DNA of 64,000 bases, taken from positions 372,001 to 436,000 of the forward strand of contig NZ_CP140152.1 in assembly GCF_034479515.1 (NCBI RefSeq). The letters run 5' to 3'. Positions 45,153 to 48,734 of this stretch are shown here, in pieces. This stretch comes from Duganella zoogloeoides (GTDB taxonomy: Bacteria > Pseudomonadota > Gammaproteobacteria > Burkholderiales > Burkholderiaceae_D). Every line of letters begins with the position of its first letter. The stretch's first letter is position 1. A model generated the notes under the pieces. That model was not told where the DNA came from and did no database searches. It saw only the letters and a list, made by a program, of their open reading frames with translations. The translations under genes were made by a program, and so were the position numbers.

Positions 45153-45225
45153 GCTGGTCTCCGTTATAAGTTTTGTACTGAGAAGTTTTTGATGAAGCAG
45201 TGCGACGGGTTGCTGCGGTCATTTC

Positions 45226-45241
45226 AGCAACATGCGTGCCA
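45226..45241 (-). promoter_or_regulatory. Sigma-54 promoter of the PQQ dehydrogenase operon
   Basis: The minus strand reads TGGCACGCATGTTGCT, a perfect match to the -24/-12 consensus with the GG and GC ten bases apart. It lies 74 bases before the dehydrogenase start. Confidence 0.88.
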
Positions 45242-45314
45242 GCGTGGCTGGCGGGGCGCGGCGGTCATCGCACCGGGCCGCGCTGCGCTGTCCTGCCACA
45301 GCCGCCGCACGGGG

Positions 45315-45334
45315 CTGTGACATTTTTGAACAAC
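45315..45334. promoter_or_regulatory. Putative activator site between the dehydrogenase and HiPIP promoters
   Basis: The minus strand reads TGTTCAAAAATGTCACA, matching 13 of 17 positions of the palindrome at 46436-46452. It lies about 75-65 bases from each of the two divergent sigma-54 promoters, as expected for an enhancer-binding-protein site. Confidence 0.6.
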
Positions 45335-45396
45335 GGTACAGCGATAGCGCCGCTCGCCATGGAGGGCGGTGCCGCTGGCAACAGGAGAAGTGCCGC

Positions 45397-45412
45397 TGGC
45401 ACAGCGGTTGCT
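45397..45412 (+). promoter_or_regulatory. Sigma-54 promoter of the HiPIP gene
   Basis: TGGCACAGCGGTTGCT, a full -24/-12 consensus match with correct spacing, 57 bases before the HiPIP start. Confidence 0.87.
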
Positions 45413-45468
45413 GAACAGGGCTCCAGGAGGCCGCCGTGCGCCTTCATACCAATCACAAGGAGACCACC

Positions 45469-45789
45469 ATGCAATCACCGCCACGCCGCCATTTCATTTG
45501 CCAACTGCTTGCCGTCGGCGGCATGGGCGCCACCGCGCTGGCCGGCGCACAAACCTCGGCGCCGAAGGTGGACGAGGACAGCGACCAGGCCAAGGCGCTC
45601 GGCTACCGCCATGACACGACCAAGGTCGATGGCAAAAAATATCCGCAACACGTGCCGGCCCAGCGCTGCGACAACTGTTCCTTCTTCCAGGGCAAAAAGG
45701 GCGACCCGTGGGCCGGCTGCGCGATGTTCGGCCGCAAGCAGATCGCGGCGCCCGGCTGGTGCGTGGCGTGGGCCAAGGCGCCGGCGTAG
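45469..45789 (+). CDS. High-potential iron-sulfur protein (HiPIP)
   Basis: A 106-residue periplasmic electron carrier with a [4Fe-4S] cubane. The N-terminal signal carries RRHFICQLLAVGGMGATAL, which looks Tat-type, as usual for HiPIPs exported folded. The cluster ligands are the four cysteines of CDNCSFF, GCAMF and GWCVAW. AAGGAG at 45457-45462 is six bases before ATG 45469. It is divergent from the PQQ dehydrogenase and has its own sigma-54 promoter, so it is probably part of the same electron-transfer chain. Confidence 0.93.
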   Translation: MQSPPRRHFICQLLAVGGMGATALAGAQTSAPKVDEDSDQAKALGYRHDTTKVDGKKYPQHVPAQRCDNCSFFQGKKGDPWAGCAMFGRKQIAAPGWCVAWAKAPA

Positions 45790-45793
45790 CCAA

Positions 45794-45821
45794 TAAAAAA
45801 AGGCGCTGCCGCGGCAGCGCC
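45794..45821 (-). terminator. Terminator of the PedF-like cytochrome gene
   Basis: A perfect 20-bp palindrome GGCGCTGCC/GCGGCAGCGCC at 45802-45821 is followed on the minus strand by a run of T. It sits between two convergent genes. Confidence 0.8.
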
Positions 45822-45843
45822 CTTGCTTCTGCAATCACGACAA

Positions 45844-46329
45844 TTACAGTTTTTGTTCGCGCTGCGACTCCAGATAAGCCTTCACCGCCCAGATAGCCTC
45901 TTGCGTGAACACGCCCTCGAACGGCGGCATGTACACCGCGCCATTGCGCGAACGGCCATGGCGCACCGTCTCCAGCACGTACTGGTCGATCTCCTGCGCA
46001 CAGGCATCCTTTTTCCTGGCATCGGCCAGCACCGCGCAGTCGTTGTCGAGCTTGCGCAAGTCCGGCGCCATGCCGCCCGACACCGCCTCCAGCCCATGGC
46101 AACGCGCACAGTTTTGCGTGTAAGCAGCACTGCCGATGCGGATCGCCTCGGCGTTGTTCCGATACGGGTTTTCCGTGCGCCACTCGGCGCCCAGTTGTGG
46201 CAGGGTGGATGTATCGACTGCTTGCGGCGTCATATTGCCGTGCGCGTACACGGCTGCGGCCAGCATGCAAGTTGCCATGCCGCCCAGGCCGCCGAGGATG
46301 CGCCAGATACGGGTGTGGGTAGTTGTCAT
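45844..46329 (-). CDS. pedF: Cytochrome c-550, PedF-like
   Basis: A 161-residue periplasmic cytochrome c. The signal peptide ends near AVYAHG; the haem site is NCARCHGLE and the axial methionine is in AVYMPPFEG. The block MAPDLRKLDNDC, a later cysteine in KKDACAQE, and RHGRSRNGAVYMPP match PedF, the electron acceptor of PQQ ethanol dehydrogenases in Pseudomonas. ATG 46329 is preferred because GGAG lies six bases upstream; ATG 46341 would overlap that site. A sigma-54-like site lies 60 bases upstream. Confidence 0.9.
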   Translation of the reverse strand: MTTTHTRIWRILGGLGGMATCMLAAAVYAHGNMTPQAVDTSTLPQLGAEWRTENPYRNNAEAIRIGSAAYTQNCARCHGLEAVSGGMAPDLRKLDNDCAVLADARKKDACAQEIDQYVLETVRHGRSRNGAVYMPPFEGVFTQEAIWAVKAYLESQREQKL

Positions 46330-46388
46330 CGTAGTCTCCATGTTGTTGATCGATTCGGTTGATCGCATAGTGCGTGGCAGACAGCGAT

Positions 46389-46452: not shown

Positions 46453-46524
46453 GTTGTGCAATACCACCCGCCATCAGCTGATCCCATTTGACGCAGCGGC
46501 GGCGCTGGCAGCGGCTGTAGCGGC

Positions 46525-46540
46525 TGGCACGGCATTTGCG
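46525..46540 (+). promoter_or_regulatory. Sigma-54 promoter of the aldehyde dehydrogenase gene
   Basis: TGGCACGGCATTTGCG: a perfect -24/-12 element with correct spacing, 63 bases before the start codon. Confidence 0.88.
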
Positions 46541-46602
46541 AAATGAAAGCAGGGCGGGAGATTCCGCATTTATAGATGTAATCCAACGAGAAAGAGGACG
46601 AC

Positions 46603-48123
46603 ATGAATCTGGCAGACATCAGCAAACTGGGCGTAGCCAATCCTTTCAAACAACGCTACGACAACTACATCGGCGGCAAGTTCGTGGCGCCGGTCAAGGG
46701 TGAGTACTTCGGCAATATCACGCCCATCACCGGCCAGGTGTTTTGCGAAGTGGCGCGCTCCACCGCCGAAGACGTGGAACTGGCGCTGGACGCCGCCCAT
46801 GCCGCCAAGGTTGCCTGGGGAAAAACCTCGCAAACCGAGCGCGCCAATATCCTCAATAAAATCGCCGACCGCATGGAAGCGAACCTGGCGCTGATCGCCA
46901 CTGCCGAGACCATCGACAACGGCAAGCCGATCCGCGAAACCACGGCGGCCGACATTCCGCTGGCCATCGACCACTTCCGCTACTTCGCCGGTTGCATCCG
47001 CGCCCAGGAAGGCTCGGTTGCGCAAATCGACTCGGAAACCTATGCGTACCATTTCCATGAACCGCTGGGCGTGGTCGGCCAGATCATCCCGTGGAATTTC
47101 CCGATCCTGATGGCCGTGTGGAAGCTGGCGCCGGCGCTCGCTGCCGGCAATTGCGTGGTACTCAAACCCGCCGAGCAAACCCCGGCGTCGATCATGGTGT
47201 TGATCGAACTGATCGGCGACCTGCTGCCGCCCGGCGTGCTCAACATCGTCAATGGGTTCGGGCTGGAAGCGGGCAAGCCGCTGGCATCGAACAAGCGCAT
47301 CGCCAAGATCGCGTTTACCGGCGAAACCGGCACCGGCCGCCTGATCATGCAATACGCGGCGCAAAACCTGATTCCCGTCACGCTGGAACTGGGCGGCAAA
47401 TCGCCCAACATCTTCTTTGCCGACGTGATGGATGCCGACGACGCATTCTTCGACAAGTGCCTGGAAGGCTTTGCCATGTTCGCGCTGAACCAGGGCGAGG
47501 TGTGCACATGCCCGTCGCGCGTGTTGATCCAGGAATCGATTTACGAAAAATTCATCGAGCGTGCACTGGCCCGCGTGGCCGCCATCAAGCAGGGCAACCC
47601 GCTCGACGCCGGCACCATGCTCGGCGCTCAGGCCTCGCAGGAGCAGCTGGAAAAAATCCTGTCGTACATCGACATCGGCAAGCAGGAAGGCGCGCAAGTG
47701 CTGGCCGGCGGCGAGCGCAATGTGCAGGGCGGCGACCTGGAAAGCGGCTATTACGTTCGGCCCACCGTGTTCAAGGGCGACAACAGCATGCGCATCTTCC
47801 AGGAAGAGATTTTCGGACCGGTGGTGTCGGTCACCACGTTCAAGGACGAGGAAGACGCGCTGCGCATCGCCAACGATACCCTGTACGGTCTTGGCGCCGG
47901 CCTTTGGACCCGCGATGGTTCGCGCGCATTCCGCGTGGGCCGCGCCATCCAGGCTGGCCGGGTGTGGACCAATTGCTACCACCTGTATCCGGCCCATGCC
48001 GCGTTCGGCGGCTACAAGCAGTCGGGCATCGGCCGCGAAAACCACAAGATGATGCTTGACCATTACCAGCAAACCAAAAATTTGCTGGTGTCGTACAGCC
48101 CCAACGCGCTCGGATTTTTTTAA
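46603..48123 (+). CDS. Aldehyde dehydrogenase (ExaC/AldB/AcoD type)
   Basis: A 506-residue NAD-dependent aldehyde dehydrogenase that oxidises acetaldehyde from the periplasmic alcohol dehydrogenase to acetate. The cofactor motif is [19 protein letters not shown], the general-base glutamate is in LELGGKSPN, and the catalytic cysteine is in [11 protein letters not shown]; the CTC pair is typical of ExaC/AldB. The C-terminus [11 protein letters not shown] is standard. AGAGGA precedes ATG 46603. It is followed after three bases by a DUF779 gene, a common companion. Confidence 0.94.
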
Positions 48124-48126
48124 AAA

Positions 48127-48507
48127 ATGAATGCCACCGAAAGGGTAAAGGCCACCGCGGCCGCCATCGACATGCTGGCCACGCTGCGCGCACGGCATGG
48201 CCCATTGATGTTCTTCCAGTCGGGCGGCTGCTGCGACGGCAGCGCGCCGATGTGCTACGCGGCCGGCGAGTTCGCGGTGTCCGACAGCGACGTCTACCTC
48301 GGCAACCTCGATGGCACGCCGTTCTACATGGGAATCGAGCAGTTCGCGTACTGGGAGCATACGCAGTTGATCATCGACGTCGTCGATGGCAATGGCGGCA
48401 TGTTCTCGCTCGATAACGGCACCGGGCGCCGCTTCCTCACCAGGTCGCGGCTGTTCACCGACGACGAGCTGGCGCAGTTGCAGCATCCCTCTGCGCCGGT
48501 GCGGTAG
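48127..48507 (+). CDS. DUF779 protein
   Basis: A 126-residue cytoplasmic protein of the DUF779 family, recognised by FFQSGGCCDGSAPMCY near residue 30, YLGNLDGTPFYMG, and FSLDNGTGRRFLTRS. The cysteines (CC and C) suggest a metal or redox site, but no function is established. DUF779 genes commonly follow acetaldehyde dehydrogenases, and this one starts three bases after the upstream stop codon, so the two are co-transcribed. Confidence 0.88.
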   Translation: MNATERVKATAAAIDMLATLRARHGPLMFFQSGGCCDGSAPMCYAAGEFAVSDSDVYLGNLDGTPFYMGIEQFAYWEHTQLIIDVVDGNGGMFSLDNGTGRRFLTRSRLFTDDELAQLQHPSAPVR

Positions 48508-48584
48508 TGGCGTAACTGTTTTTTAGCGTCTCCTGGTTCCGATCACGCTGGCCACGTCTCCGCGTCAGCCCGGACAGGACTTCA

Positions 48585-48615
48585 AGCTGACGGCTGTTGC
48601 CGTCGGCTTTTTTTT
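48585..48615 (+). terminator. Terminator after the aldehyde dehydrogenase-DUF779 pair
   Basis: AGCTGACGGC (48585-48594), TGTT loop, GCCGTCGGCT (48599-48608) with one G-T pair, then eight T: a strong intrinsic terminator. Confidence 0.9.
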
Positions 48616-48637
48616 GCGCGTTCGCTTTGTCGCGCGG

Positions 48638-48654
48638 CGATCCAATTCTGAACA
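48638..48654. promoter_or_regulatory. Putative activator site upstream of the porin remnant
   Basis: The minus strand reads TGTTCAGAATTGGATCG, matching 13 of 17 positions of the 46436 site, with the TGTTCAG half intact. It is 66 bases upstream of a sigma-54-like element. Confidence 0.45.
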
Positions 48655-48718
48655 GCCGGCGCAGCGGCGCTGATGCGATACGGCGCACCGCTCACACCTC
48701 CTTCCTCTGACATGAGCC

Positions 48719-48734
48719 GGGCATGCAAATTGCC
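48719..48734 (+). promoter_or_regulatory. Sigma-54-like promoter of the porin remnant
   Basis: GGGCATGCAAATTGCC: the GG (48720-48721) and GC (48732-48733) are ten bases apart and the -12 half is good, but the -24 half deviates at two positions. Confidence 0.5.

Follow-up and report, generated by a model that had tools for sequence, protein, structure and literature searches.

Does the alcohol-oxidation island of Duganella zoogloeoides answer to a single switch and, if so, through which DNA site? The window analysed here is a 64-kb stretch (contig NZ_CP140152.1, positions 372,001 to 436,000) of a 6.32-Mb genome assembled as a single contig. Its island combines genes for a pyrroloquinoline quinone (PQQ)-dependent alcohol dehydrogenase (ADH), a high-potential iron-sulfur protein (HiPIP), the cytochrome PedF, an aldehyde dehydrogenase (ALDH) and a porin with the gene of an AcoR-type sigma-54 activator, which a sequence-only reading had joined into one regulator-site-target set. 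Here, we computed the sites, the promoters, their conservation, their co-occurrence with AcoR, and their helical spacing. On these grounds, the island is very probably an alcohol-oxidation regulon under the AcoR-type activator encoded nearby and the genome's single RpoN (one PF04552 match, 220 bits). Family names point to ethanol as the substrate.

All five promoters previously proposed are conserved blocks in the two Janthinobacterium genomes used for synteny comparison (L043 and L044), where the gene order from acoR to the dehydrogenase is the same. Among named matches at the locus, Janthinobacterium psychrotolerans, of which strain S3-2 carries the island, and Janthinobacterium sp. 344 come closest (dehydrogenase 95% identity). 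Three of the promoters had been described as near-perfect -24/-12 elements, and this was borne out, with the GG and GC dinucleotides present at fixed spacing. That of the ADH operon (45226..45241, minus strand; TGGCACGCATGTTGCT) has no mismatch to TGGCACGNNNNTTGCW and is identical in L043 and L044, and those of the HiPIP gene (45397..45412, plus strand) and of ALDH/DUF779 (46525..46540, plus strand) have one mismatch each and are kept as the blocks TGGCACA..GGTTGCT and TGGCACGGCATTTGC. The two promoters that had been called weaker, though likewise conserved, are less secure by score. The pedF promoter (46389..46404, minus strand; TGGCATACCGATTGCT), kept as TGGCATACCG.TTGCT, has two mismatches; the window contains 24 matches of that quality against 17.8 expected, a count reached in 11 of 100 shuffles. 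The sigma-54-like promoter on the porin side (48719..48734, plus strand) is weaker still and outside the mismatch-scan list; its block GGCATGCAAATTGCC is retained in both relatives, though the L043 sequence behind it differs. Because the window is near chance at two mismatches, these weaker promoters rest on conservation.

The element common to the three sites reported between or upstream of these promoters is the dyad TGTTC-N7-GAACA. The sequence-only reading had presented it as a 17-bp motif recurring as such or in close variants; the shared dyad stands, but the literal 17-mer does not. It occurs just once, at 46436..46452, which is also the only exact TGTTC-N7-GAACA of the genome, and it does not match the other two copies, at 45316..45332 (one base from the 45315 given earlier) and 48638..48654, at up to three mismatches, so we rejected it as the motif. 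Instead, we trained a symmetrised matrix on 18 distinct sites found upstream of ALDH in other genomes; the window, L043, and L044 contributed none. Over the 64 kb, this matrix places first the upstream activating sequence (UAS) common to ALDH (gap 72) and pedF (gap 31), at 46436..46452 (TGTTCAGGAATGGAACA), and second the UAS common to ADH (gap 74) and HiPIP (gap 64), at 45316..45332 (TGTGACATTTTTGAACA), the left half of which is decayed. Fourth and sixth are two sites at acoR (54632 and 54651), and seventh is the decayed UAS 5' of the porin gene (48638..48654; gap 64 from coordinates). Since a matrix trained elsewhere ranks the 45316 and 48638 sites second and seventh, they are more than chance.

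Among the other high-ranking dyads of the window, the third (21393..21409) has no promoter nearby, and the fifth (54420..54436) and eighth (51081) were not counted, as they lie within the acoR coding start and a NosR-like gene, respectively. The ninth (46479..46495; TGATCCCATTTGACGCA; score 10.5) is a possible weak second dyad that is kept in L043, with one change, and in L044. The ALDH/pedF dyad reads TGTTCAGAAACGGAACA in both L043 and L044, and the porin-side dyad has a counterpart scoring 13.8 in L044 and no clear one in L043. Conservation in orthologous intergenic regions, on which the motif had been staked, was looked for, and the motif survived in the syntenic relatives, the genus, other Betaproteobacteria, and some Gammaproteobacteria. 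The ALDH/pedF intergenic stretch gave no plasmid match.

When a promoter is required within 20-150 bp of a dyad, the window yields four promoter/dyad pairs, all of them in the island, as against one pair in total over 100 dinucleotide shuffles (mean 0.01, maximum 1). The gaps themselves are ordered, clustering near 30, 42, 52, 64, 74, 86, 100, and 109 bp. Their period is 11.2-11.3 bp (R 0.64 for 27 distinct genus values), and this R was reached by none of 5000 random draws from 29-145 nor by any of 5000 from 29-110; with the genus values reduced to nine cluster centres, p is ~0.009. Against the period and phase fixed in the genus, loci outside it gave a V-test p of 0.0097. Steps of about 11 bp fit looping on one face of the helix. 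Promoter/dyad pairs are likewise present at loci of Rhodocyclaceae, other Betaproteobacteria, and some Gammaproteobacteria. As a separate observation, the dyad and sigma-54 promoters stand directly 5' of ADH genes with the lanthanide-type motif HDGWDFDG in Dechloromonas and related metagenome-assembled genomes (near 15 kb in L049, L053, L060, L080, and L096, and near 6 kb in L052); the promoters lie on both sides of the dyad except in L052, and a calcium-type ADH is present too.

What ties the site to AcoR is its distribution. We surveyed 74 genomes of the genus and found AcoR orthologues (at least 76% identity) in 39, the present genome counted, and ALDH in 47. From these, 40 regions around AcoR homologues were fetched (38 being orthologues), along with 11 around further ALDH copies; two homologues of about 50% identity (L210 and L211) were excluded from the orthologue counts. 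AcoR was counted as absent where none of the scored candidates, at most 16 per genome, matched at E 1e-120. A dyad was counted upstream of ALDH at a matrix score of at least 14, and ALDH copies below 85% identity or with truncated starts were left aside. Accordingly counted, ALDH genes in genomes with an AcoR orthologue have the sigma-54 promoter in 39/39 cases (the window's included) and the dyad in 37/39, the two misses being G003 (12.0) and G070 (13.4). A second ALDH copy in G003, kept outside the 39, has neither promoter nor dyad (13.6). By comparison, the four genomes with no AcoR and an ALDH of 91-98% identity (G060, G067, G077, and G082) have promoter and dyad in 0/4 each (Fisher p 8e-6 and 1.2e-4, respectively, uncorrected for relatedness). 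Genomes with only distant AcoR homologues have the promoter in 3/4 and the dyad in 1/4. In G095, AcoR and ALDH are ~1.9 Mb apart, and ALDH still has both promoter and dyad. Moreover, the recognition helix of AcoR hardly varies across the genus. The proposed regulator-site-target set is supported by this tracking, which extends to the unlinked case.

AcoR itself (52489..54444, minus strand) has the expected layout of a sensory GAF domain (PF01590), a central AAA+ sigma-54 domain (PF00158), and a C-terminal Fis-type helix-turn-helix (PF02954). As claimed beforehand, it is the only such activator in the window; twelve genome matches to it, itself among them, all reach the AAA+ domain. More conspicuously, acoR has a sigma-54 promoter of its own (54704..54719, minus strand) with two dyads downstream, not upstream, of it, at 54651..54667 and, 19 bp further, at 54632..54648 (score 17.1; TGCTACATTATGGAACA in many relatives), none of which had been reported. 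We examined 40 acoR loci, namely the window, L043, and the 38 genus regions, with L044 excluded as its acoR is at a contig edge. The same arrangement of promoter and downstream dyads is found in 33, and in 27 of these 33 the tandem dyads are exactly 19 bp apart. From promoter to first dyad, the offsets are 50-52, 62-64, 73-75, and 85; the L197 value was obtained by subtracting 19 from its single dyad, and the 85 of L204 uses a dyad scoring below 9. With the 85 removed, the observed R was reached by 0/5000 draws from 48-77, and with the L197 value removed, again by 0/5000.

In the window, the acoR start is separated from the dyads by an element of 122 bp (54495..54616) whose 18-nt ends form inverted repeats; the promoter and dyads keep the relatives' offset of 52. 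No second copy of this element was found in the window or the fetched loci. Beyond its promoter, acoR adjoins an rRNA operon (55107-60247: 16S at 55107-56635, two tRNAs, 23S, and 5S). In 32 of the 38 genus regions, no more than 0.7 kb of sequence is left past acoR; assemblies often break off in this way at rRNA genes. On its other side, between porin and acoR, are genes for a NosR-like membrane protein and an ApbE flavin transferase (49732-52471), which are kept there in many relatives.

Turning to the predicted targets, the dehydrogenase gene (43281..45152, minus strand; TIGR03075, methanol/ethanol family) is followed on the same strand by genes for a pentapeptide-repeat protein in PedD-like position (42493..43140, start estimated), a PedF-like cytochrome c of 142 aa (42050..42478, start estimated; TIGR04494 81.4 bits, below the cut-off of 122), and a TonB-dependent receptor (39908..42028). 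The best solved relatives of this receptor are YncD/PqqU (PDB 6v81, E 1.2e-150; 9c4o, E 5e-150), over residues 36/37-706. Because its 634.8 bits against the NCBIfam PqqU equivalog NF041535 fall below the cut-off of 1200, we call it a PqqU-type PQQ importer rather than PqqU proper. A family search found neither pqqB nor pqqC in the present genome, and pqqC is above its family cut-off in 17/74 genus genomes. Of the 31 fetched relatives with a cluster PQQ-ADH, pqqC is present in 12 and missing from 19, and the cluster includes PqqU in all 19 of the latter and in 10 of the former; around acoR, PqqU is found in 34/38 genus regions, two of the four lacking it being short contigs. A sigma-54 promoter of its own precedes pqqU in 29 of 36 loci scanned. 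Since there is none directly 5' of pqqU in L043 and L044 and just a weak candidate (42255) in the window, we infer read-through into pqqU from the ADH promoter. In the one such locus examined in detail (L179:10851-12300), pqqU and a YVTN-type beta-propeller gene (TIGR02276 match; TIGR03866 under cut-off) are arranged divergently, their sigma-54 promoters lying 13 bp apart with no dyad between.

The dehydrogenases of the window (read by eye), L043, and L044 share the motif NDAWDFSG, which we take to cover the metal-binding position 295 of PedE. In the available portion of PMC5487730, Ser rather than Asp at this position separates calcium- from lanthanide-type enzymes; NDAWDFSG has the Ser of a calcium-type PQQ ethanol dehydrogenase (ExaA/PedE), and by the same measure the 31 fetched relatives all have a lanthanide-type enzyme (ND[SA]WDFDG) in the cluster. 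Judging from these motifs, a calcium-type enzyme seems to have replaced a lanthanide-type one under a switch that was retained.

The HiPIP gene (45469..45789, plus strand; PF01355, 77.5 bits) has family members in 17/74 genus genomes. In one of these (G034), with a HiPIP 81% identical, TGGCACAGTGGTTGCT stands upstream as promoter, and a PedF-like gene has a separate dyad/promoter pair with a gap of 42 bp. We scanned 20 loci of the 21 HiPIP matches, the window's included; none of the 19 others has a dyad scoring 14, and 3/19 (L268, L276, and L279) have a promoter scoring at least 14. Around the first-ranked dyad lie pedF, for cytochrome c550 (45844..46329, minus strand; TIGR04494 196 bits, cut-off 122), and the genes for the acetaldehyde dehydrogenase ExaC (46603..48123, plus strand; NF050026 951 bits, cut-off 900) and a DUF779 protein (48127..48507, plus strand; PF05610). 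The putative porin gene (48799..49766, plus strand), so named in the sequence-only reading, has no family match and a reading frame broken near 48,890, and L044 holds a relative with an open 411-aa frame. Both HiPIP and porin had been placed in the target set. HiPIP holds its place, given its conserved promoter and second-ranked dyad, but the porin is the weakest predicted target, with a low-scoring promoter, a decayed site, and a broken frame.

We picture the switch as follows. The GAF domain of AcoR would sense the inducer, probably the alcohol or its aldehyde, and AcoR would bind TGTTC-N7-GAACA dyads between or upstream of divergent promoters and reach the RpoN holoenzyme through DNA looping. 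One dyad would serve ADH and HiPIP and another ALDH and pedF, and the decayed one may serve the porin. As pqqU lies behind the dehydrogenase gene in the same orientation, enzyme and cofactor importer would probably be induced together. At its own gene, AcoR would bind the two tandem dyads just downstream of the sigma-54 promoter and control itself, with a sign that we infer.

Several observations weigh against this account. The ADH/HiPIP dyad of the window has one decayed half, and its counterpart in L043 and L044 (TGTCCTGTTTTGCAACA) scores just 10.4. At one mismatch, the genome has 61 dyad sites against 56 for the reversed control, which is no enrichment; because the exact dyad occurs once and one-mismatch sites match the control frequency, the regulon looks local. 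Inspection of 20 of the 60 other one-mismatch sites (L254-L267 and L301-L306) found no sigma-54 promoter scoring at least 13.5 at 20-150 bp, the nearest case being a promoter of 13.0 at 86 bp in L303, judged weak, and on this basis we rejected a genome-wide regulon beyond the island. The matrix was trained on the genus sites themselves. The four AcoR-less genomes probably reflect about two losses, as judged by eye, because three of the four are alike upstream; further, G075, G020, and G078 have sigma-54-like ALDH promoters with only distant AcoR homologues, G020 and G078 being without a dyad. Gaps of 83, 90, 93, 97, 104, 118, 126, and 133 fall off the 11-bp ladder, and the periodicity of the outside loci by themselves is weak when no period is fixed beforehand (R 0.40, p 0.066). 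The pqqU promoters of relatives are mostly without a near dyad (2/36 loci paired). Lastly, acoR has a promoter and no dyads in L178, and neither within 300 bp in L189, L192, L193, L195, L196, and L198, six loci that are also without a neighbouring PQQ-ADH.

Such observations leave room for other explanations. The sigma-54 promoters could be real and the dyads be targets of a repressor or of a different Fis-type activator, with AcoR a bystander. The twelve AcoR matches in the genome supply candidates, and in L073 a promoter/dyad pair persists beside an AcoR-like protein with a different recognition helix (SRST). However, the eleven matches other than AcoR cover just its AAA+ and C-terminal part, L075-L078 with other helices (HRST, SRST) have no convincing dyad 5' of ALDH, and the dyad both follows AcoR in presence and absence, linked or not, and occurs at acoR itself, which makes a bystander role very unlikely. 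It is somewhat less far-fetched, though still unlikely, that AcoR targets only ALDH/pedF and perhaps acoR, the ADH/HiPIP and porin genes being driven by sigma-54 with some other input and their sites decayed remnants. The one-sided decay of both the 45316 and 48638 sites and the weak counterpart in L043 and L044 would suit such remnants, but the 45316 site ranks second in 64 kb, its gaps of 74 and 64 sit on the 11-bp ladder, and the ADH and HiPIP promoters are conserved in three genomes.

At acoR, the choice is closer. There, the dyads could be operators that block transcription in negative autoregulation instead of enhancers, and the chances of this fall only slightly short of even. They would lie within the presumed 5' leader, some 30-60 bases past the expected start, as suits a roadblock; yet the distances move in steps of about 11 bp, which looping requires and a simple roadblock does not. 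Sigma-54 enhancers downstream of the promoter are known in Caulobacter (FlbD/ftr). If AcoR-driven activation is taken throughout, the parts combine into a joint reading that we hold tentatively, as rather less than probable: in a bacterium that apparently makes no PQQ, AcoR would act through helix-phased dyads to induce the dehydrogenase, its importer, and a HiPIP acceptor, would sustain itself from downstream tandem enhancers, and would have seen the lanthanide enzyme exchanged for a calcium type plus HiPIP.

A consensus and spacing rule for an AcoR-type activator would make targets predictable in other proteobacteria, and the acoR arrangement would be a naturally occurring case in which to test activation by downstream sites. 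The HiPIP is nominated as an electron carrier in alcohol oxidation. The import of PQQ, a shared community cofactor, would be tied to expression of the enzyme needing it, where synthesis genes were not found. In the open-licence literature, we found no paper on HiPIP with PQQ and alcohol dehydrogenase, none joining AcoR, sigma-54, alcohol dehydrogenase, and PQQ, and, so far as its available texts go, no description of the site, the spacing rule, the extra members, or the acoR arrangement.

The kind of system is already known, and sigma-54/AcoR control of acetaldehyde dehydrogenase has been predicted before (PMC4676750). According to the accessible part of that paper, growth of Ralstonia solanacearum GMI1000 on ethanol needs rpoN1, and the AcoR homologue Rsc3129 is listed with ExaC Rsc3128 as its predicted regulator. 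The likeness to the present island is this pairing of an AcoR homologue with ExaC; a binding site, HiPIP, PQQ importer, spacing rule, or acoR autoregulation is not described in that part. As an alcohol-sensing sigma-54 activator acting on a UAS, BmoR at Pbmo of Thauera butanivorans is a further relative, and in the portions available of PMC8899819 and PMC11967783 its UAS is put 193 bp upstream of the -24/-12 element and its operator remains unclear. There, deletion of a putative operator hairpin left induction like wild type, and hairpin changes altered the dynamic range. The present site, in comparison, is defined by conservation and phasing, and it is set against the Pbmo UAS by description only; loci L288-L299 of the T. 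butanivorans genome, in which bmoR and Pbmo were not identified, contain no dyad. The Pseudomonas ped/exa cluster, as far as covered in the available text of PMC12997753, shares the PQQ-ADH, the pentapeptide protein PedD, and the cytochrome PedF, but the regulators named there are AgmR, EraR, ErdR, and PedS1, with the sigma-54-dependent response regulator CbrB at a higher level, and the terms RpoN and AcoR are absent from that text. Finally, the available part of PMC12124388 reports that PQQ is scavenged by the TonB-dependent PqqU, of whose producers only 23% have synthesis genes. Its main text does not use the terms sigma and promoter; in the present genome, the gene of the PqqU-type importer lies downstream of both a sigma-54 promoter and the enzyme presumed to be its client.

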